A stretch of DNA of 60,544 nt from Borreliella garinii (GTDB lineage: Bacteria > Spirochaetota > Spirochaetia > JABEVK01): the NCBI GenBank assembly GCA_020720765.1, contig DYOB01000006.1, positions 1 through 60,544 of the forward strand. The letters are read 5' to 3'. Each line of letters starts with the position of its first letter. Within the stretch, counting starts at the first letter, position 1. This document shows, one piece after another, positions 11,582 through 21,636 of this stretch. The notes under the pieces are model-generated. The model saw only the letters and a list, made by a program, of their open reading frames with translations. It was not told the origin of the DNA and ran no database searches. The position numbers were made by a program, and so were the translations under genes.

Positions 11582-12552
11582 TCTTGTTCCCGTTTGAGAA
11601 TTTCCTTTAGCCGATCAGGTGTCAGCCCGAGGGCCTCGTAAAGGGTTCTTACACTGGGTTGGGGCATTGGTGCAATAAGCGGGATAGGACCTAAAAGACT
11701 TCCCCCGTCCTCGTGGGGAAAAACTAGTTTGAAGGCGTGAAGGACAAATCCCCCGGATAGCTGGCCCCCTCCGTATCGGCTGTCGCCTGCGAGGGGGAAG
11801 CCTAGGGTCTGGGCGTGGACGCGAATCTGGTGGGTCCTGCCTGTTTCCAGGGTGCAGACGGCAAGTGTCATCCCCCTTTCGGACAATAAGGGTTTGAAAT
11901 GGGTCACCGCAGGGCGGCCTTGGGGATCGATCTTCACCATTCCGGTTTCCGGGTCCTTGGAGAGAGGTTCCCTGCAAGTCTGTTTTCTATCAAGTTTTCC
12001 CTTCAGCAGGGCCAAATATTGTTTCCCTATCTTTCCAGCCTTGAGCAGCGAGCTGAATATCCGCGCACCGTCCAGGCTCCGGGAGAAAACAACAAGTCCC
12101 GAAGTATTTTGATCGAGCCGATGCAAGGGGCCGGGCTGGAAACTCAGGCTGTTGGATGGGTAGGCGGATTTCACCATGATATCCAGACTCGAAGGACCGT
12201 GGACAAGAAGACCGCGTGGTTTGTTAAAAGCCATAATGCGGTCATTTTCCCACACAATAAGGTCCTTTAAACTTCCGCCATCCCATCGGCGTGGCTTTTT
12301 CTTCATAGTTCGCTTTCTTTCGGGGCCTACGTGTCCGCGTAAAAAGAGAGGCGAGTAGACCGAAAGTTCATCCCCGGCTTTTGGTCTCGATGTGGAAACC
12401 GTCTTCTTATGATTGATTCTTACATCTCCGGACCGGATGGCCTTCTGGATTTCTCCGAGGCTCAGGCTGGGAAGCAGTTTTCTGCATATGGCATCCAAAC
12501 GTTTTTCGTTGTCATCCTTGTGAACCGGAAGAACCTTGTATCGTTCAGTCAT
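11578..12552 (-). CDS. RluA-family pseudouridine synthase (RluC/RluD-like)
   Basis: 324 aa. An N-terminal S4 RNA-binding domain (RLDAICRKLLPSLSLGEIQ ... VRINHKK) precedes the catalytic domain. The active-site motif is HRLDQNTSGLVVFSR with the catalytic Asp of RLD; GRTHQIRVHAQTLGFPLAGD and RYGG follow, all standard for the RluA family, which isomerises uridine in 23S rRNA or tRNA. The exact target (RluC or RluD type) cannot be fixed from sequence. It sits between mlaD (4-nt overlap) and the P-loop/Asp23 gene. Confidence 0.88.
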   Translation of the reverse strand: MTERYKVLPVHKDDNEKRLDAICRKLLPSLSLGEIQKAIRSGDVRINHKKTVSTSRPKAGDELSVYSPLFLRGHVGPERKRTMKKKPRRWDGGSLKDLIVWENDRIMAFNKPRGLLVHGPSSLDIMVKSAYPSNSLSFQPGPLHRLDQNTSGLVVFSRSLDGARIFSSLLKAGKIGKQYLALLKGKLDRKQTCREPLSKDPETGMVKIDPQGRPAVTHFKPLLSERGMTLAVCTLETGRTHQIRVHAQTLGFPLAGDSRYGGGQLSGGFVLHAFKLVFPHEDGGSLLGPIPLIAPMPQPSVRTLYEALGLTPDRLKEILKREQE

Positions 12553-13424
12553 TCAGCCAACTGGTCGCGGATGTCTTTTGTGATCTGGTTAAGGTTACCG
12601 CTGATTTCCTTTAAGTCCGTGAGGATGGATTCGATGCTCCTGGCAGTTTGCGGGTTTCCCATAAGCGATACCACGGAATCCTGCCTATTGAGGGTCCTTC
12701 CCGCAGTTTCGATTTCCTTTGCCGCGCCGCCTACGGATTCAAGGGCGGCTAAACTTTTCTGCGCCTGATCGACAAGGGTGGTAATACTTGTATTGAGATT
12801 GTTGGAAATGCGGACGATCTCCCTCTCTAAAGTCACCGCCGTTCTATCCAAAGTTGCCGCTGTTTCACCAATGCGGGAAAGCCCCTGGGTCAATGTCTCG
12901 ATGTTTTGCACGGTCCGGGCTATGGATTCCTGGTTCTGTTCCACAAGATTTCCTAAAAGAATGGTGGTTCTGCTCACCTCTTTCAGCACATCCTCGCCGC
13001 TGGAAGCGATGGAAGCGAGGTCAAAACTCGGTTTTCCGGGAATAACCGATAGTTCCTGGTAGGAGGCTGCCAGGGGGTCTCCGGGAAAAACATCGATAAA
13101 CTGGTCACCGAGAAGTCCCCCTGTAACTATGCTGATCTGGTCCGAGGTTCTGATAATATTGCCAGGAAATAGCCTGATAAGCAAAAGCACTGTCCGCTGG
13201 GTTATAGGGTTGATCTTAACCTCGATGACACTCCCCACCTTGACACCCGATTTCCGTACTGGCGAACCTGTTACTATTGTTCCGATCGAGTCGAATTCGA
13301 GGTAATAACTTGTCCCGGTGTTGAAAAAATCGACACGGAAGATCATCGAGTAGAGAAGAGTGACTATGAAGACGCTTATCAAAACAAAAACAACGGTTTT
13401 AACTGTTTGTGTAGCCTTGCTCAC
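12549..13424 (-). CDS. mlaD: MlaD-type MCE-domain lipid transport protein
   Basis: About 291 aa from a GTG at 13424, chosen because GAGAGGA lies about 7 nt upstream and the protein then begins with the usual short head and one membrane helix (VVFVLISVFIVTLLYSM). The ATG at 13523 would add 33 non-membrane residues inside mlaF. The MCE domain follows (YYLEFDSIGTIVTGSPVRKSGVKVG, then GLLGDQFIDV), with a long helical tail (about 130-290) probably reaching into the periplasm. MlaD rings carry phospholipids between the inner and outer membranes. It works with MlaE and MlaF next door; no mlaB or mlaC is present. Confidence 0.85.
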   Translation of the reverse strand: MSKATQTVKTVVFVLISVFIVTLLYSMIFRVDFFNTGTSYYLEFDSIGTIVTGSPVRKSGVKVGSVIEVKINPITQRTVLLLIRLFPGNIIRTSDQISIVTGGLLGDQFIDVFPGDPLAASYQELSVIPGKPSFDLASIASSGEDVLKEVSRTTILLGNLVEQNQESIARTVQNIETLTQGLSRIGETAATLDRTAVTLEREIVRISNNLNTSITTLVDQAQKSLAALESVGGAAKEIETAGRTLNRQDSVVSLMGNPQTARSIESILTDLKEISGNLNQITKDIRDQLAE

Positions 13425-14157
13425 GGTGGATCCTCTCTCGGTTGGCGATAAAATTCTGATAAATCGGGGAGTTGGTCTTAAAGGCCTCGTCCCGGGTTTC
13501 CTTATACAATATTTTCCCCTCATCTAGAAGTGCTACATCCCCGCCTAAAAAGCGCACCAGTTCTATGTCATGGGTCACAACAAGTGTGGTTATATTCAGC
13601 TTTTCTTTGAGTTGGCGTATGAGTATCTCAACAATTGCGCTCGAAGTCGGGTCCAGTCCGGTGGTAGGCTCGTCGTAAAAAATATAACTCGGTTCGAGCA
13701 TGATCGTCCTTGCGAGGGCTACCTTCCGGCGCATTCCACCAGAAAGATCCTTGGGCATAAGGTGGAGGCTGTCCGCGATTCCCACAAGTTCGGCGTATTC
13801 CTGGACCTTTTTTTTAATCTGGGCCACCGGTGCTTTTTTATGATAAGCCACCGGAAACGCTATGTTTTCCGCAACACTCATACTGTCGAAAAGTGCGCCG
13901 TTTTGAAGAAGCATACCGATATGGGCTGTCATTTCCTTTCTCTGCGCCTTACCCGAGGACAGAAATTCCTTTCCATCGATGAAAATACGCCCGCTTACAG
14001 GATTGAGAAGACCGAGGACACACTTGAGGAGTACGGATTTCCCTATTCCGCTTTTTCCCAGGATCATGGTCGTCATTCCCTCTTTTATCTCAAGACTCAG
14101 GCCCTTGAGAACCTCTTTCGCCCCGAACTTGACCCAGAGGTCTTCTACGACAATCAT
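13399..14157 (-). CDS. mlaF: MlaF-type ABC transporter ATPase
   Basis: 252 aa. Walker A GKSGIGKSVLLK (about 33-44), Q-loop MLLQNGALFDSMSV, signature LSGGMRRKVALAR, Walker B FYDEPTTGLDP and the switch His in VVTHDIE are all intact. It powers retrograde or anterograde phospholipid transport with MlaE and MlaD. It overlaps mlaE by 4 nt and mlaD by 26 nt, which indicates tight translational coupling. Confidence 0.9.
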   Translation of the reverse strand: MIVVEDLWVKFGAKEVLKGLSLEIKEGMTTMILGKSGIGKSVLLKCVLGLLNPVSGRIFIDGKEFLSSGKAQRKEMTAHIGMLLQNGALFDSMSVAENIAFPVAYHKKAPVAQIKKKVQEYAELVGIADSLHLMPKDLSGGMRRKVALARTIMLEPSYIFYDEPTTGLDPTSSAIVEILIRQLKEKLNITTLVVTHDIELVRFLGGDVALLDEGKILYKETRDEAFKTNSPIYQNFIANRERIHREQGYTNS

Positions 14158-14930
14158 CCTGGTGATCCCATGGAGATCTGGGTGGAGGCCATCCCTATGG
14201 CAAGGTCGATCAGAAGTAAAGAAAAAATATTGATCACCATGCTTTTTGTGGTAATCCGTCCGAGTTCAGCGGCACCGTCGCACGAATAAAAACCCAAACC
14301 CACAGCATTCAACGAAACAACAAAACCTATGATAAGGGATCTTAAAAGCGAGTTGGTAAGAATATCCCCCCCGATGTAATTGAAGGCGTTGAGAAAAAAC
14401 TGCTGGAAGCTGATATCCCAGAACACGTCGGATAGAACCCAGCTGGAAAGTATCGCAATACCGAAACTAAACCCTGTGAGGATGGGTAGGGCTATCATGC
14501 TGGCTATTACTCTGGGAATGACAAGGAAGGAATAAGGCTCGACATCCATGATTTTCAGGGCCGAAAGCTGTTCACTCATCTGCATGGAGCCTATTTCCAC
14601 CGTGAAAGCAGTTCCAATACGGCTAGCGTAAAGAACTCCCGTCATCAGAACCGAAAATTCCCGTAAGACAGCATAAACAGTGATGGTCCCTATCCAGCGG
14701 TAACCCCCGAACTGTTCTCCATAAAATCCTCCAAGCCACATCACGAATATCCCCTGGACGACGCTGCCCCAAAAGACAGTAACCCAGCCGTCGTTGATGA
14801 TCTGGCGGAATTGAATCAGGATGAGCTTAAAAGGAAAAATCCCTTTGTAGAGCCAATAAAAAAAATCCTTGTAAGCGGAGAAAATGGTTTCGAGGGCGAG
14901 GTTCCATTCGCTTTTGACTTTTAGCAACAA
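14154..14930 (-). CDS. mlaE: MlaE-type ABC permease
   Basis: 258 aa, with five to six membrane segments and the DUF140 hallmarks: VLREFSVLMTGVLYASRIGTAFTVEIGSMQMSEQLSALKIM and the C-terminal SLNAVGLGFYSCDGAAELG. It forms the inner-membrane channel for phospholipids. The start is TTG at 14930 with GGAG 10 nt upstream. First gene of the mlaEFD operon, driven by the promoter at 14950-14978. Confidence 0.88.
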   Translation of the reverse strand: MLLKVKSEWNLALETIFSAYKDFFYWLYKGIFPFKLILIQFRQIINDGWVTVFWGSVVQGIFVMWLGGFYGEQFGGYRWIGTITVYAVLREFSVLMTGVLYASRIGTAFTVEIGSMQMSEQLSALKIMDVEPYSFLVIPRVIASMIALPILTGFSFGIAILSSWVLSDVFWDISFQQFFLNAFNYIGGDILTNSLLRSLIIGFVVSLNAVGLGFYSCDGAAELGRITTKSMVINIFSLLLIDLAIGMASTQISMGSPG

Positions 14931-15040: not shown

Positions 15041-15520
15041 ATGTACCTCACTCTGACTCAGTCTTTTGCCGAATTCTTTTCTCAACCCGTCGTACTTTCG
15101 GGAATATCGGCATGGTTTATAGCCCAATTTATCAAGTCGCTTATATCCATTCTAAAGTATAACCAGAAGTTCGGCAAAGGTTTGCTGGTCACTATGTTAT
15201 GGTCCACAGGAGGCATGCCTTCCAGCCATACGGCTGTGGTTTCGGCTTTGACAACTGCTATTGGATTTACAGAGGGTGTCCTTAACCCCATTTTTACTGT
15301 TAGCCTCTTTTTCTCCTTTTTGGCTATTAGGGATTCTTTAGGCGTCAGACGTGCTGCGGGACTCCAGGCCAGGGTGCTGAATCAGATTATTTCAGATCTC
15401 AACCATAAACACGGATTGAACTACAAACAGGTGAAAGAAATTAACGGACATAAAGCGGCCGAGGTCATCGTCGGAATTCTTCTGGGGTTTTTCCTGGGAA
15501 CAGCTTTTTCTAACCTTTAA
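15041..15520 (+). CDS. Divergent PAP2 family protein (DUF212, YuiD-like)
   Basis: 159 aa with four or so membrane helices. GGMPSSHTAVVSALTTAIG is the phosphatase-like core of the divergent PAP2/DUF212 family, and DSLGVRRAAGLQARVLN plus GHKAAEVIVGILLG are its other conserved blocks. Members are predicted lipid-phosphate or pyrophosphate phosphatases, but no substrate is established for the family. It begins the plus-strand run that leads into the Rnf-like genes, 13 bp before the next start. Confidence 0.85.
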   Translation: MYLTLTQSFAEFFSQPVVLSGISAWFIAQFIKSLISILKYNQKFGKGLLVTMLWSTGGMPSSHTAVVSALTTAIGFTEGVLNPIFTVSLFFSFLAIRDSLGVRRAAGLQARVLNQIISDLNHKHGLNYKQVKEINGHKAAEVIVGILLGFFLGTAFSNL

Positions 15521-15533
15521 CAAGGAGTTTTTT

Positions 15534-16997
15534 TTGAGACCGTCCCCGTTTTCACGGCTCCTTGTCCTCTCTGGGCTTTTGTTCTTCTCTATGCAAGCCA
15601 ATTCTTGGGAAGGATATAAAACGATTTACCTACAAACCCAGGCCGACGAGGAAAAACTATTCCTTCTCCTTGAAGGAGGAAATTTTACAGGCGTGCTCAG
15701 TTACTCTTCGACCCTTGTCTCATTCCAAGATTTTTCCTCACTTGAAAAGATTTCCCTAAAAGATCTTCCCAAAAGGTTATACCCCACGGACCCCAGGTAC
15801 GACCCTTTTATGAAATCCCTCGACAAACTCTTTCTTTCGCCGCTTGGCGGCCGCTGGGTCTATATTCCTCAAGAAATCTGGGACAAAGGGTTTTCAAATG
15901 AGCTCAACAAGAGCGGAATCGGTTGGCTGGAACCCGGGACACCGTCTGGCTCTGTGAAAAATCAAGGAAACCCCATCCAGGCGCTTCTTTTTCTTCTTTT
16001 TTGCTTTCTTCTCAATAAAGATGTAAAAAGTGTTCTTTTTCCGATTGTGGCTATAACAAGTTTTCTAGGAGGAGTTGCCGTGTTTTTCATCGGGATTCTC
16101 GCAATCCCGGTAGCGGCAGCTGTTATTTTTTACTGGAAATGGCAGTTGGGTCATGACAGGGAATCATGGGAGAGGAGGGCATCGGGGGATGGCTCTATAG
16201 TACAAATTCAAAGTTTTTCACCATTTTTTCTGCTTGTTTTCTTGTTTCCCTATCTTGGAAAGGATATTCTATATTTTTTATCGGGCATTACTGCTGGATT
16301 TCTACATTATTTGACTACATGGATAGTCGTGAAAATCTATCACGGGTATTGGGACCATATCCTTAAAAACCTTGAACACAGAATTTTTATACCCCACTCA
16401 TTGAAAAAGAAGAAAAAATCCTTTCTTTCTTATGCGTTTCTCGCTTTACCTATCCTTACCCTTTTTCCTGCTGTTTTTATTTTCCAGGACAAATCGCAAA
16501 ACCTTACACCTCCTTGGCACCAGGAATTCCTTGAGGACCAGGGTGGTTTGTTGTCTTTCAGAGAGTTATTTAAGGAAGAACAAAGTGAAACCTTACCTGG
16601 CCCCGCCTCCTTTATCGCTCATTCGGCATTTCAGGAAGGCTTCGCTTACGGTGTGACCTTTACAGTTCCTGAAGAAAAACCCTGGACACTCCCTCGCTAC
16701 ACCCGGGTGAACAACCGTCTGGTGGAAGAAGTTATGACAGTGGTCGATTTCGGCCCACAATGGTACTCCAGGCTTAAAAACAGTTTGGGGCCTCAGAGTG
16801 CCGGCAGCCTCCTCCTCTCAAGCCATACACCGTACCGGTTAATTCCAGGAGAAAGCTCAGCTCTGCCCCCCGAGGAAGTACCCCTCCCCTTGGCGGGGAT
16901 CTTTGGGCTTTTTTTCCTAGGCTACTATCTTGATAAAACCAGAACTCTCAACGATAATTCCAATTCTTTCATTCATTCTAAAAGGCAGGCGGCATGA
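15534..16997 (+). CDS. Unknown membrane protein at the head of the Rnf-like cluster
   Basis: 487 aa from a TTG with AAGGAG 6 nt upstream. A signal sequence (LLVLSGLLFFSMQANS) leads an exported domain of about 110 residues. Then come four or more membrane helices (about 145-310), a Lys-rich loop (SLKKKKKSF), a second soluble domain (about 325-445), and a last helix (PLPLAGIFGLFFLGYYLD). It contains no cysteine pair, no SGAT flavin motif, and no family I recognise. It overlaps rnfC by 4 nt, so it is very probably a partner or assembly factor of the Rnf-like complex. That is inference from position only. Confidence 0.5.
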   Translation: MRPSPFSRLLVLSGLLFFSMQANSWEGYKTIYLQTQADEEKLFLLLEGGNFTGVLSYSSTLVSFQDFSSLEKISLKDLPKRLYPTDPRYDPFMKSLDKLFLSPLGGRWVYIPQEIWDKGFSNELNKSGIGWLEPGTPSGSVKNQGNPIQALLFLLFCFLLNKDVKSVLFPIVAITSFLGGVAVFFIGILAIPVAAAVIFYWKWQLGHDRESWERRASGDGSIVQIQSFSPFFLLVFLFPYLGKDILYFLSGITAGFLHYLTTWIVVKIYHGYWDHILKNLEHRIFIPHSLKKKKKSFLSYAFLALPILTLFPAVFIFQDKSQNLTPPWHQEFLEDQGGLLSFRELFKEEQSETLPGPASFIAHSAFQEGFAYGVTFTVPEEKPWTLPRYTRVNNRLVEEVMTVVDFGPQWYSRLKNSLGPQSAGSLLLSSHTPYRLIPGESSALPPEEVPLPLAGIFGLFFLGYYLDKTRTLNDNSNSFIHSKRQAA

Positions 16998-18250
16998 CAC
17001 ATATTCTAGGGAAAAATCGGCTGAAAGTTCGTTCGTTTATAGAAAATACTTTTTCGACAAAAATTCAGAATGCCACCTTACCCGGTATTGCCCTGGTCAC
17101 CCTTGGACTGGATGGAAGCGGTGAAGGAAAATGGTTTGTTCAATCGGGAAGCCTGGTAGAAGAGGAACAAGTGATTGGTGAAGGACCCTTTGGTCCTGTC
17201 CATGCACCCATACCCGGCAGGATAGCCCGGATAACAACCATGAAAACCCCTAAAGGAGCGGATACAGTTATCGCCGGGATCTCGCTTGAGGGTGAATTTA
17301 AACGCACAGGAAAAACCCACGCTGAAAGACGTTGGGAAGAAGAAAACCCCCAGAAGCTCTGGGAAGAAATTTACAAACTGGGTTATGTTTACACCCCCAG
17401 CTCTCTTGAAAAGCCGAGGTTCCTTCCCCCGTTAGGGTCCATAAAACAACTTATTATAAATTGCCTCCAGGCAGAACCCTATCAAAACGGGTATTTTCAT
17501 TTATCCCAGGAGTACCCTGATAAACTTTTCAGAGCCGTCCGTATGATCAAGAAATTTTATAGCCCTCAACGCATTGTTTTTGCAGTCCATAAACACCCGG
17601 AAAATTACACCCGGAAATTTCAGGCTAATTTCGGCACAGGAACAACAGAAACCCAATTTTTTAACATGGATTATCCAAGTGCACATAGTTCTTTTCTTTC
17701 AAAGGACGAATTTTCTACCCTTGTCATTGATCCAGAAAGTCTGCTCTACCTTGAAGAAGCAGTTCTTCTCCGCAGGCCTCAAATAGAAACTTTTATTACC
17801 ATTTCAGGGAGCGGAATAGGAACACCCGGCGTTTACAGAGCCAGGGTAGGGACTCCAGTGAGCCAATTATTAAAAGAAGCGAGTGCGGTTATTCCAAAAA
17901 ACGGCGTCGTAGTACTGGGCGGTCCTTTCCGAGGTGCACAGGTAGAGGGAGACTTCCCTGTTACGAGGTCCACGAGGGTTCTTCTCGTTTTAGCCCCCCA
18001 CGAAGTTCGCTCGGCCCCTGTTTCTGAATGTATTCGATGCGGTTCGTGTGTTGATTACTGTCCGGTAGGAATCAACCCTATCCGACTCAGTGAAGCTATC
18101 ACACGAAACAACCCTTCTGCAGAACTGGAAAGTGAACTTAACCGATGTATCGAATGCGGTATTTGTTCAGCTGTTTGTCCCTCCCGGATCCCTTTGCTGG
18201 CAAATTTTCAAACCGCAAGGATAACCGGACTTGTAAAAACTAAGGAGTAA
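16994..18250 (+). CDS. rnfC: RnfC-like iron-sulfur subunit
   Basis: 418 aa. The N-terminal barrel-sandwich part (SGSLVEEEQVIGEGPFGPVHAPIPGRI) and the C-terminal pair of [4Fe-4S] motifs (CIRCGSCVDYCPVG and CIECGICSAVCPS) are those of RnfC, the NADH/ferredoxin-facing subunit of the Rnf pump. The flavin/NADH loop is weak: the expected YPQGxE-type sequence reads YPSAHSSFL. It is therefore divergent. AGGCAGG precedes the ATG, and the gene overlaps the upstream membrane protein. Together with the next two genes it suggests a reduced electron-transfer complex. Confidence 0.82.
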   Translation: MTHILGKNRLKVRSFIENTFSTKIQNATLPGIALVTLGLDGSGEGKWFVQSGSLVEEEQVIGEGPFGPVHAPIPGRIARITTMKTPKGADTVIAGISLEGEFKRTGKTHAERRWEEENPQKLWEEIYKLGYVYTPSSLEKPRFLPPLGSIKQLIINCLQAEPYQNGYFHLSQEYPDKLFRAVRMIKKFYSPQRIVFAVHKHPENYTRKFQANFGTGTTETQFFNMDYPSAHSSFLSKDEFSTLVIDPESLLYLEEAVLLRRPQIETFITISGSGIGTPGVYRARVGTPVSQLLKEASAVIPKNGVVVLGGPFRGAQVEGDFPVTRSTRVLLVLAPHEVRSAPVSECIRCGSCVDYCPVGINPIRLSEAITRNNPSAELESELNRCIECGICSAVCPSRIPLLANFQTARITGLVKTKE

Positions 18251-18252
18251 AG

Positions 18253-19269
18253 ATGAGCTCGTTTTCGATGCCGCCACAGGCTTTTATTTTCCGAACTTCC
18301 AGATCAAGGATTTTAGAGATGCTCTTCGTCCTTACCACCGCTTTTATCTGGAGTTTCTATGATCAATCACGGGTTTATTACCATATAATACTTGCTGCTC
18401 TTCCTTCTCTCAGCGTTATGTTTCTCAAAAAGGCTAGGCAGTCAAGCATTGAAACTATGCTGAAAATCCTGCCTTTTGGCATGCTTTTTTCACTTCTGCT
18501 TCCGGGTGGATTGCCATGGGGAATTGCCGTAGTTTTTGCACTTTTACTAGGTCAGTTAAAATACTGGCGCCCTCGCCTCCCTGTTTTACCCATGATTCTC
18601 GGCCTTCTTATTCTTTCTTGGCCGGCTTTATTTGTAGGACAAATGTCCCCTATCGCCAATGCTTTTCGGGATGCCGATGGTACGACCATCCGGGACACTG
18701 TTCAAGCCTCAGGAGTTCGGGCAAGCCCGGAGGATAAAATCCTTACCGACCAGATTAATAATTTACTTGCCCAGGTAGGTGTCAACATACCAGTCGGATA
18801 TCCGGATATTTTTTTTGGCCGTATGGGTAGTACACTTGCAGATTTCAGCTGGCCATTACTGCTGTTTGGGTTTTTATTTTTACTGGGTCGGGGATATTTA
18901 AGCTGGCAAGCACCCGCTGGATTCCTGCTTTTATTTCTTCCAGGGGTGATTTTACTCGGTGGGTTTTCCATGGGTAAGGGCTTAGGAGAAGGAGACGCTC
19001 TTTTTTTCCTTCTCTCTGGAAGTTTTATGTTACCTCTCCTCTTCGGGCTTAGCGACTATTCGCTTCTACCTCTGGGGGGTTACCCGCGTTTCCTCTTCGG
19101 GCTTTCCGGAGGCTTGCTCGCTTCACTCGGCAGTGCGGTTTATCCCTTAGGCACTCCTTATGCTACCCTCATAATCATTTGGCTTTTACAAAGGGTTTAT
19201 GAAAGAACCCTGGTTTCAGAGGTTTATCATCAGGGCGATTCTATGCTACTCTTATGGAACGGAGTTTGA
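18253..19269 (+). CDS. rnfD: RnfD/NqrB-like membrane subunit
   Basis: 338 aa with about nine membrane helices. FFGRMGSTLADFSWPLLLFGFLFLLGRGYLSWQAP corresponds to the central RnfD segment, and the GLSGGLLASLGSAVYPLG end to its C-terminus. RnfD/NqrB subunits carry a covalent FMN on a Thr of an (S/T)GAT-type motif; I find no such motif here (the nearest is DGTTIRDT). It starts 2 nt after rnfC with a weak ribosome site (AAGGAG just ahead of the rnfC stop). Its role in ion or electron transfer is inferred. Confidence 0.72.
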   Translation: MSSFSMPPQAFIFRTSRSRILEMLFVLTTAFIWSFYDQSRVYYHIILAALPSLSVMFLKKARQSSIETMLKILPFGMLFSLLLPGGLPWGIAVVFALLLGQLKYWRPRLPVLPMILGLLILSWPALFVGQMSPIANAFRDADGTTIRDTVQASGVRASPEDKILTDQINNLLAQVGVNIPVGYPDIFFGRMGSTLADFSWPLLLFGFLFLLGRGYLSWQAPAGFLLLFLPGVILLGGFSMGKGLGEGDALFFLLSGSFMLPLLFGLSDYSLLPLGGYPRFLFGLSGGLLASLGSAVYPLGTPYATLIIIWLLQRVYERTLVSEVYHQGDSMLLLWNGV

Positions 19270-19270
19270 C

Positions 19271-19801
19271 ATGACAAGCCTTGTTACAATTCTTTTGTAT
19301 TCCCTAGGAGGAAATCTTCTTTTTGCACGGGGAATCGGACTCGAAAACCTTTCTGGGGAAAATACCTTTCCCTTTTTAAAAATTCTTCAAATCGGCATTT
19401 GGATGTTCCTCGTCTCTTTTATTCTCTCCATGACAGGGCTCTTCCTAGGATCAGAACTCGCATGGTTATTACCTTTAATCTTTCCTTTTCTATTGATAAT
19501 GCTTTGGCTTATCGCTTCCGCAATTTGGAAAGTTGAATCTAATTTCCAGAACTTTCTCGTTCATTCTGCCGCTCTTGGTACTGCCTACCTTGCATCTACC
19601 CAAAAAGAATGGACAGAGATGTTTTTGGTGAGTCTCGCAGCCTCTCTGGGATACCTTCTTGCACTTCTCATCATCCGGGAAATACTTCGGTTTGTTCCTG
19701 AAAACTTAAGCCCTGGAAGAAAGATGGCCTTCCTCCTTATGAGTCTTTCACTCGGTTCTATGGGATTTACCCTTTTTGGAATAGGGGCACCGGGATTCTG
19801 A
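19271..19801 (+). CDS. RnfA/RnfE-like membrane protein without cysteines
   Basis: 176 aa, six predicted helices. The ATG at 19271 is chosen because GGAG lies 6 nt before it; the ORF-track start at 19199 lies inside rnfD. Alignment to RnfA by eye is good: NLLFARGIGLENLS fits NNFVLVKFLGLCPFMGVS, HSAALG fits NCAVLG, and AASLGYLLALLIIREIL fits the AAVGFSLVM...IRERL block. In every place where RnfA/E has the cysteines for the in-membrane [2Fe-2S] cluster, this protein has none; it contains no cysteine at all. It therefore cannot bind that cluster. Only one such gene is present rather than an A/E pair. Confidence 0.68.
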   Translation: MTSLVTILLYSLGGNLLFARGIGLENLSGENTFPFLKILQIGIWMFLVSFILSMTGLFLGSELAWLLPLIFPFLLIMLWLIASAIWKVESNFQNFLVHSAALGTAYLASTQKEWTEMFLVSLAASLGYLLALLIIREILRFVPENLSPGRKMAFLLMSLSLGSMGFTLFGIGAPGF

Positions 19802-21636
19802 TGGCAAAGGTAGCGCTGATTCTTGGGGCAGTTTACCATCCTCCTTCCGCTTGGGACAATAACCAGTTGGAAACTTACTACGCCCAGAATTGCAAATCCT
19901 TGGTTTCGCTCTTTTACACGACTAAAGACTTGAATCTTACTCTTCATTTTTCAGGGTATTTTCTTGATTGGCTGAGTTTAAAACACCCCGAATATATCAA
20001 GGTTCTTTTTGATATGCAGAAAGACAGACGCCTTGAACTTCTAGGCGGTGCGTTTTCAGCACCTATTCTTCCCCTTATTCCGCACAACGATAGACTTGGG
20101 CAAATCGAAGCTCAGACTACATTGATGCGAAAAACAACCGGGAGAAAACCAAGAGGCTGCTGGATCGTCAGAGGTATTTGGGAAGAGAATCTTCCCTTTG
20201 TTCTTCGTTCATGCGGTATCGAATTTTCCTTTCTTCCGGAGGAATGTTTTAAACGAATAGGCGTCGATGATCCTTTGAGCGTTTTTCGCCCCTGCCTGAC
20301 AGAAAGCCAGGGTAAGGTTCTGACCATTTTTCCCTATTCATCCAACCTTTCCCAATCGGCATATCAAGGGAATACAGACAGTTTTTGGGAGCTTATCGAT
20401 CAACTTGAACGAAGTGAAAAAGAATTTCAAACAGTTAGTTTATTTCTTGACGGCAGCCACGTAGCCAATCTCACGGGTATTCAAAAGCTAATTACTGAAA
20501 TCAGGGATCATTTTGATGTAGTCGAAACCATTCTTCCTTCGGTCATTTTAAAAAAGGTTGCAGGAAGGCTCAAACATCACTTTTTTGCAACCTCGGGATA
20601 CCTTGAGATGAAGGCTTCAGGGGCAGAATTTGGAAAATCGGAGGAAGAACGTTCACGTTCCAACTATAAACAAATCCTTTCCGCCTCCCCGGGGTTTGAA
20701 CAGCTTTATGCAAAGATGATCCACGTGAATTTTCTCGCCTACCAGGTCCGAGGCGACAAATACCGAAAGAAGGCGGTTCTCGATGAGCTGTGGCTTGCTC
20801 AGGACCACCACCATTTTTTCTCGTGGAACGATGCCAACTATCTTTCGAATGAATTGCGCACATATAGCATGAAACAATTGATTACCGCCGAAAATCTCAG
20901 CAGAGAGAAGTCGACCTTTGCCCCGTTTATCTCTCAGCGCGACTTTGATCTCGACGGCCGGCCGGAGTTTGCCTATGCCGGAAACACCATGAACGTGGCA
21001 GTGAGCACTAAAGGCGCACAAATCTGGGATTGGGACATCCCCGACAAATTTCAAAACCTCTCCTGGGCTCCAACTTCCGAAAAGGAAGAGAATAGAAGAC
21101 ACAGTTTAGCTGATTATTATGGGCCGGGCCTAGAACTCGATCAGTTTCTGTCTGGTACCGAGAGCCATCACGATAGAATCTGGAATAAAGAATTCAAACT
21201 CGTCAGCCTGGATTCGGAGAAAAACCAACTCAGCCTTAGCTGGAAAGGGAGCCTTCAGGGTTATGGTCCTCCCCAGCATTGCCGTGTAGAAAAAGTGTTC
21301 CAGTTTTTGGAAAATGAACTTGTCGTGGATTACACCATAGAAAACCTCAGCCCTCTACAGTTAAGGGCAAGGTTTGGTCCGGAATGGCGTTTGAATATAC
21401 CGGCACTAGTGAGAGATGAAAGAAAATCCAATGTCCAGTCTTGGGAAATTGAAGTCATAAGAGGTAAACAAGGTCTCAACCTTACTTCTGAAAAACCGGG
21501 AGAGATCTTTTGTGGCAGACCCACGGGTGACTGGGGCCATTTTTATCGTCTCTTGCTCCTCTGGGATCTTGATCTCAGCCATGGAGAAAGTTTTAAAACT
21601 CAGATAAAAATGACCCGTCAAATTCCGAAAAAATAA
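19801..21636 (+). CDS. GH57-family protein, probably catalytically inactive
   Basis: 611 aa with the GH57 barrel (about 1-290) followed by DUF1925- and DUF1926-like regions. RLELLGGAFSAPIL matches GH57 motif 2, and the C-terminal half contains YYGPGLELDQF and VEKVFQF as in the 4-alpha-glucanotransferase/alpha-amylase branch. Motif 3 normally reads WLTERVW-like with the Glu nucleophile; here it is WIVRGIW, so Glu is replaced. Motif 4 reads FLDGSHV instead of DDGEK. The protein may bind glucans without cutting them. It starts on the last base of the RnfA/E-like stop (TGATG), so it shares that operon. Confidence 0.75.
   Translation: MAKVALILGAVYHPPSAWDNNQLETYYAQNCKSLVSLFYTTKDLNLTLHFSGYFLDWLSLKHPEYIKVLFDMQKDRRLELLGGAFSAPILPLIPHNDRLGQIEAQTTLMRKTTGRKPRGCWIVRGIWEENLPFVLRSCGIEFSFLPEECFKRIGVDDPLSVFRPCLTESQGKVLTIFPYSSNLSQSAYQGNTDSFWELIDQLERSEKEFQTVSLFLDGSHVANLTGIQKLITEIRDHFDVVETILPSVILKKVAGRLKHHFFATSGYLEMKASGAEFGKSEEERSRSNYKQILSASPGFEQLYAKMIHVNFLAYQVRGDKYRKKAVLDELWLAQDHHHFFSWNDANYLSNELRTYSMKQLITAENLSREKSTFAPFISQRDFDLDGRPEFAYAGNTMNVAVSTKGAQIWDWDIPDKFQNLSWAPTSEKEENRRHSLADYYGPGLELDQFLSGTESHHDRIWNKEFKLVSLDSEKNQLSLSWKGSLQGYGPPQHCRVEKVFQFLENELVVDYTIENLSPLQLRARFGPEWRLNIPALVRDERKSNVQSWEIEVIRGKQGLNLTSEKPGEIFCGRPTGDWGHFYRLLLLWDLDLSHGESFKTQIKMTRQIPKK

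Follow-up and report, generated by a model that had tools for sequence, protein, structure and literature searches.

A divergent Rnf-derived gene cluster of spirochaetes lacks the redox sites of the known electron path and keeps the two [4Fe-4S] motifs of RnfC

The window analysed here, 60,544 nucleotides of contig DYOB01000006.1 (C360), comes from a 3.4-Mb draft genome of a small spirochaete order and carries a tightly spaced plus-strand cluster at 15041-21636 that reads DUF212 - M' - RnfC' - RnfD' - RnfA' - GH57-like. RnfC', RnfD' and RnfA' (C', D' and A') are related to subunits of the Rnf complex (RnfABCDGE), and M' is a 487-amino-acid membrane protein. A first-pass annotation had placed open reading frames at positions that we confirm (Table 1), and had stated that rnfG, rnfB and a second A/E subunit are missing from the cluster. 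The open reading frame list of the window bears this out: no rnfG gene lies between RnfD' and RnfA', and no gene for the RnfB polyferredoxin is present in the cluster. The question raised by the locus is whether such a complex can run the Rnf electron path and, if it cannot, what use spirochaetes make of it.

The three Rnf-related proteins were identified by profile and structure comparisons, and their redox sites were called from alignments, which are alignments of divergent membrane proteins. RnfC' scores 182.6 bits against the NCBIfam rnfC model, under its cut-off of 246, and it can be aligned with RnfC chains of known structure (8ahx_C, E 3.3e-33). Its two [4Fe-4S] motifs, recognised at the outset, are intact CxxCxxCxxxCP motifs. 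The motif for flavin mononucleotide (FMN) and reduced nicotinamide adenine dinucleotide (NADH), which is GMGGATFPAHIKL in RnfC of the canonical Rnf of the same genome, aligns with YTPSSLEKPRFL in RnfC', and GAECEPY aligns with CLQAEPY; the FMN/NADH motif expected of an Rnf (GxGGAxFP, ECEPY) is not found in RnfC'. RnfD' matches PF03116 with 61.4 bits (cut-off 27.7). The sequence at the aligned region of the covalent-FMN Thr is MSPIANA, in agreement with the claim that the RnfD-like protein has no flavin-attachment motif, and of its riboflavin ligands the Asn is lost and the Asp of the ATD motif is kept (SDYS). RnfA' has no cysteine at all, as had been noted, and the two AE1 cysteine positions of RnfA are occupied by E25 and S99. 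Alone, RnfA' scores 21.3 bits against PF02508, under the 23.8 cut-off, and over its C-terminal part only. The full-length alignment with RnfA that had been claimed for this protein was recovered when its family profile was compared with canonical RnfA (hhalign P 98.6, E 8.7e-16, 173 columns), and the same profile did not match RnfE (P 0.3). An AlphaFold2 model of RnfA' has six long helices at low confidence (predicted local distance difference test score, pLDDT, 70), with NqrD chains at ranks 6, 9 and 20 (E > 1). The identity of RnfA' was taken from the profile-profile comparison because the confidence of the model is too low.

The Rnf of Acetobacterium woodii no longer reduced NAD+ with ferredoxin once its AE1 cysteines, the flavin Thr of RnfG or the riboflavin ligands of RnfD had been taken out (PMC11889175). 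The inactivity of these mutants, together with the loss of redox ligands, indicates that the known Rnf electron path cannot run through the window complex. A pump with the known U-shaped path can be taken as excluded, judging from the residues: RnfB, the AE1 [2Fe-2S] ligands, an RnfG carrying FMN, the flavin Thr of RnfD' and the FMN/NADH motif of RnfC' are all absent. The window complex is very probably not an electron-driven Na+ or H+ pump.

The remainder of the source genome (G000, one of seven genomes of its family, G000-G006) was searched for the missing parts. A complete, unlinked Rnf elsewhere had been named beforehand as a result that would overturn the observation. A complete rnfBCDGEA operon, including rnfG and RnfB, does lie on contig C353, but the observation stands, with the window cluster as a second, divergent copy. 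A second A/E subunit had been called absent, and this holds for the cluster only. Contig C346 encodes a 452-amino-acid protein, RnfE'-CheR, whose N-terminus matches canonical RnfE (profile P 98.6, E 1.3e-15), has no cysteine at the AE1 places, and is fused to a CheR methyltransferase domain. The fusion runs end to end in five of the seven family genomes (G000, G001, G003, G005 and G006), and was found in no other sampled spirochaete outside the family. In the source genome its neighbouring gene has a homologue in G004 (27% identity, E 2e-42), which is adjacent there to GH57 of the C'D'A' cluster. The second A/E subunit has thus moved and been fused in the source family. RnfA' is the orthologue of RnfA and RnfE' that of RnfE, which leaves both halves of an A/E pair available. 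The source genome also has an nqrB-C-D-E-F-like cluster (L008, G000:C106, 5963-10123) with no nqrA adjoining. NqrA above the Pfam cut-off was found neither in this genome nor in the majority of the spirochaetes sampled, irrespective of whether their RnfC is intact or degenerate.

The cluster was compared across spirochaetes to learn how its losses are distributed. RnfD' and the GH57-like protein were searched in 148 genomes of the class, and in many families the two genes are near neighbours. Scanning GTDB genomes with GH57 as the anchor added 80 named spirochaete loci, the best 80 hits, to those of the class sample. All compared clusters are thus GH57-linked, most loci are from metagenome-assembled genomes, and all were annotated with profiles built in this analysis. 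The ancestral operon that these loci show reads DUF212-M-rnfC-D-G-E-A-B-GH57. Reduced forms lack B and have a weak G, lack both B and G, retain C-D-A (the source family), or retain C-D alone. The gene order of the window recurs in the other family genomes and, with E'/A', across Treponema, which shows that the window cluster is not a chance arrangement and answers a check proposed with the initial annotation. Patterns were counted in 74 non-redundant clusters, 25 with RnfB and 49 without. The RnfC FMN motif is present in 23/25 clusters with RnfB compared to 2/49 without. Both RnfA cysteines are found in 23/25 versus 5/43, both RnfE cysteines in 23/25 versus 8/36, and RnfG in 24/25 versus 5/49. 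Both RnfC [4Fe-4S] motifs are present in all clusters of either kind (25/25 and 49/49). All eight Fe-S cysteines are among the conserved columns that degenerate RnfC has in common with the intact form, and the residues of the FMN/NADH site are lost.

The ratios of nonsynonymous to synonymous substitution rates (dN/dS) for M', C', D', E', A' and GH57 range from 0.02 to 0.33 in ten pairs of related degenerate clusters. These values show that the genes are kept by purifying selection and are not debris. On the RnfC tree, the intact or degenerate label requires two changes compared to 21.8 in shuffles, and a single change is enough in 54% of the bootstrap trees. One origin of the degenerate form is possible; the branches are long and the root of the pattern is unsure. 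Intermediates exist. Four clusters (L088, L092, L097 and L105) have no RnfB and keep A/E cysteines, and one (L117) keeps a short RnfB and has lost its A/E cysteines. A shortened RnfB despite lost A/E cysteines, seen in L117 (and L071) and L122, is an exception to the pattern. Several loci (L107, L119, L138, L072, L078 and others) encode a 140-175-amino-acid protein with one N-terminal membrane helix at the former rnfG place between D' and E'. Homology of this Treponema protein to RnfG is not claimed (profile P 4.9).

One of these clusters belongs to a genome (G079, a single 1,139,633-bp contig) that we take to be Treponema pallidum from its size and from the position and codon 260 of its RnfD' gene. 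Its cluster locus (L072, G079:C1:164000-180000) reads DUF212 - C' - D' - small membrane protein - E' - A' - GH57, and its RnfD' gene spans 173,895-174,914 on the minus strand with GTA (Val) as codon 260. This gene fits tp0151 by its position and by codon 260, since a Val260Ile variant of tp0151 is described near position 174,174 (PMC7162541). The T. pallidum C' keeps both Cys motifs and has no FMN motif, D' has no flavin Thr motif, and A' and E' have lost the AE1 cysteine sites. No PF02508 match was found in the genome. Cysteines are present at other places in A' and E', where another cluster site is possible, and M' was not detected in the T. pallidum cluster.

The reading that we favour, although with less than even confidence, is that C'-D'-A' and the CheR-fused E' from elsewhere form a divergent Rnf-derived complex that has lost the electron path, has kept the scaffold and the two [4Fe-4S] clusters, and works as a redox-responsive switch or sensor. 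The switch function taken by itself is possible but tentative. The suggestion had been made of a pump with a changed electron path or a non-redox use of the fold; the pump with the known path falls away, and "non-redox" is too strong a term for proteins in which both [4Fe-4S] motifs are kept in each of the 49 degenerate clusters examined. NqrA has lost its Fe-S clusters, and their universal retention in degenerate RnfC' therefore argues for a use. In the mechanism that could be drawn from this, which as a whole we regard as speculative and rather unlikely, spirochaetes made a redox-sensing complex from the Rnf pump: sensing would fall to the RnfC' clusters, movement to the A'/E' pair that has no [2Fe-2S] cluster, and reporting to a methyltransferase, which in the source family is part of the E' protein. 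The switch by itself, tentative as stated above, starts from two features of the sequences. The first is the survival of C', D', A' and E', which selection maintains and which can still be recognised as orthologues of Rnf subunits; the second is the two C' [4Fe-4S] sites, which judging from the residues are all that remains for certain of the redox chain in the source family. At the cytoplasmic face, the RnfC' clusters would take or give an electron with a soluble carrier, or would suffer oxidant damage. The change in the clusters would alter the seating of RnfC' on D'/A'/E', inward or outward motion of the A'/E' pair would pass the signal on, and the methyltransferase domain on E' would be the output in the source family. 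Several points weigh against the sensor. The partnership of E'-CheR with the C'D'A' complex is putative. The fusion was not found in the drafts G002 and G004, and in Treponema RnfE' is a stand-alone gene inside the cluster. No chemoreceptor or methylation target is linked to the cluster, the RnfC' [4Fe-4S] clusters could be purely structural, and the GH57-like, DUF212 and M' neighbours are left unexplained.

Other explanations account for parts of these data. RnfC' might be a residual electron relay whose [4Fe-4S] clusters pass ferredoxin or flavodoxin electrons to a partner, such as M', a soluble enzyme or a non-covalent flavin in D', with no pumping or along a changed path. Retention of both motifs in 49/49 degenerate clusters, when the RnfC fold of NqrA manages without them, is consistent with a relay, as are the RnfB-less clusters L088, L092, L097 and L105 that keep A/E cysteines and others that keep riboflavin-site residues. 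In the window genus, however, nothing remains of the FMN, covalent-flavin and [2Fe-2S] sites or of the riboflavin Asn, and the cluster encodes no acceptor enzyme; we give the relay a limited but real probability. The D' and A'/E' proteins might instead form a channel, a transporter or an envelope-assembly scaffold together with the phosphatase-like DUF212 and GH57-like proteins, the Fe-S domain serving only to anchor C' to the membrane. The constant linkage of the DUF212 and GH57-like genes, the mla-type lipid transport genes divergently upstream in the window and in G001, and the persistence of structural motifs of A and D without redox sites all point in this direction. The same neighbours flank intact redox Rnf operons, however, so they were linked before the redox sites were lost, and retention of all eight cysteines suggests more than glue; we rate a transport or envelope role as unlikely.

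The remaining explanations concern the other Rnf and Nqr genes of the genome, or deny the cluster a function. A hybrid pump, in which C'D'A'(E') works with RnfB and RnfG of the canonical Rnf, would be supplied by the complete operon on C353, and further PF02508 matches occur in most genomes with a degenerate cluster. It is nevertheless improbable: borrowed B and G would feed nothing, because there is no site for the AE1 cluster in A'/E' or for the covalent flavin in D', and T. pallidum keeps the cluster without any PF02508 match in its genome. That RnfC' stands in for the NqrA that the nqrBCDEF cluster on C106 lacks is suggested by the descent of NqrA itself, an RnfC without cofactor sites (PMC4014512), and by the lack of NqrA above cut-off in a genome with NqrB-F-like genes. 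C' always travels with its own D', though, most of the spirochaetes sampled have no NqrA irrespective of how C is preserved, and T. pallidum has C' with no A/E-family match, which leaves this substitution very improbable. Related clusters have lost subunits and sites step by step, as a decaying, functionless pseudogene remnant would. The frames are open throughout, gene order is kept over many genera, and the dN/dS values far below 1 mainly refute decay, to which we give hardly any credence.

The window complex was compared with known systems. It shares with Rnf the RnfC, RnfD, RnfA and (elsewhere) RnfE orthologues, the RnfC [4Fe-4S] motifs and the order C-D-..-A, and differs from it by the absence of RnfB, RnfG, the AE1 cysteines, the C' FMN/NADH motif and the D' covalent-flavin Thr, and by a CheR-fused E' on another contig. 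There is a precedent in NqrA, where the RnfC fold has given up its cofactor sites and retains a structural role (PMC4014512). Unlike C', NqrA of Na+-NQR lost the [4Fe-4S] clusters, and the other Nqr subunits keep their redox sites, whereas A' and D' do not. The NQR/RNF-like flavinylated clusters, with NqrB/RnfD-NqrF fusions and flavinylated proteins, are known mainly from Actinobacteria and the Candidate Phyla Radiation (eLife 2021, PMC8238504). They likewise use a part of the NQR/RNF components, but the window proteins have lost the flavin sites and include no NqrF domain. The T. pallidum system, formed by tp0151 and its neighbours, has been called a "noncanonical" RNF-type system (PMC7512555), and tp0151 has been called rnfD, as part of an Rnf complex that generates an ion gradient with flavodoxin as the electron donor (PMC11371664); the literature view is that of a flavodoxin-oxidising ion pump (PMC7512555, PMC11371664). 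Its operon plan and its redox-site losses are those of the window, and it differs by an unfused E' in the cluster, a small one-helix protein at the RnfG place and no detected M'. No description of an Rnf-CheR fusion or of a degenerate Rnf was found in the open-licence literature; subscription journals may hold one. These comparisons point to a widespread, selected form of Rnf in many spirochaetes, including the agent of syphilis, in which the scaffold and two [4Fe-4S] clusters stay and almost all redox sites are gone. The ion pump proposed for the syphilis spirochaete rests on tp0151 and neighbours of this electron-path-less type, and the model needs a direct test. If the redox-sensing complex were real, T. 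pallidum would own a sensor only and no Rnf pump. The RnfE'-CheR fusion offers a concrete handle on a possible new function.

Table 1. Features of the window cluster and the RnfE'-CheR gene of the source genome. Positions refer to the window unless another contig is named.
Feature	Position	Strand	Evidence
DUF212 / divergent PAP2 membrane protein, opens the conserved operon	15041..15520	+	PF02681, 134 bits; place kept in most related clusters
M', 487-aa (amino acid) membrane protein, TTG start	15534..16997	+	Homologous gene immediately before rnfC in operons of both kinds, intact and degenerate
RnfC', 418 aa, RnfC fold	16994..18250	+	NCBIfam rnfC, solved RnfC chains, motif alignment
RnfC' first [4Fe-4S] motif, CIRCGSCVDYCP	18029..18064	+	Cysteine residues C346, C349, C352, C356
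RnfC' second [4Fe-4S] motif, CIECGICSAVCP	18146..18181	+	Cysteine residues C385, C388, C391, C395
RnfD', 338 aa, NqrB/RnfD-family membrane protein	18253..19269	+	PF03116, 61.4 bits
RnfA', 176 aa, cysteine-free RnfA orthologue	19271..19801	+	Profile-profile match to canonical RnfA
GH57-like protein, 611 aa	19801..21636	+	PF03065, 78.6 bits
RnfE'-CheR, 452 aa	G000:C346 (L009:3342-4706)	-	Pfam Rnf-Nqr, 31.6 bits; CheR, 83.9 bits

M' had been thought to take the place of the missing subunits. This idea is refuted by intact rnfCDGEAB-GH57 operons, in which a homologous gene precedes rnfC as well. Since it precedes rnfC whether the operon is intact or reduced, M' is an old accessory gene and not a substitute. 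M' is a membrane protein with soluble domains at its N- and C-terminus, and its AlphaFold2 model has confident domains at residues 28-126 and 325-440. A fold search with the model gave no significant PDB match (CutA-like matches had E > 1), the protein belongs to no family in Pfam, NCBIfam or PHROGs, and no relatives were found in the plasmid collection.

The genes around the cluster were also compared. The mlaD/mlaF/mlaE-type lipid transport genes are divergent and lie directly upstream, at 12549-14930 of the window, and the same arrangement is seen in G001 (L018). The nucleophile Glu of GH57, which we take to be the Glu of WLTERVW in structure 1k1w, is replaced in the GH57-like protein of the window, where the aligned sequence is WIVRGIW. 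This Glu is kept in many other spirochaete copies and lost in others, some of which lie beside an intact Rnf.

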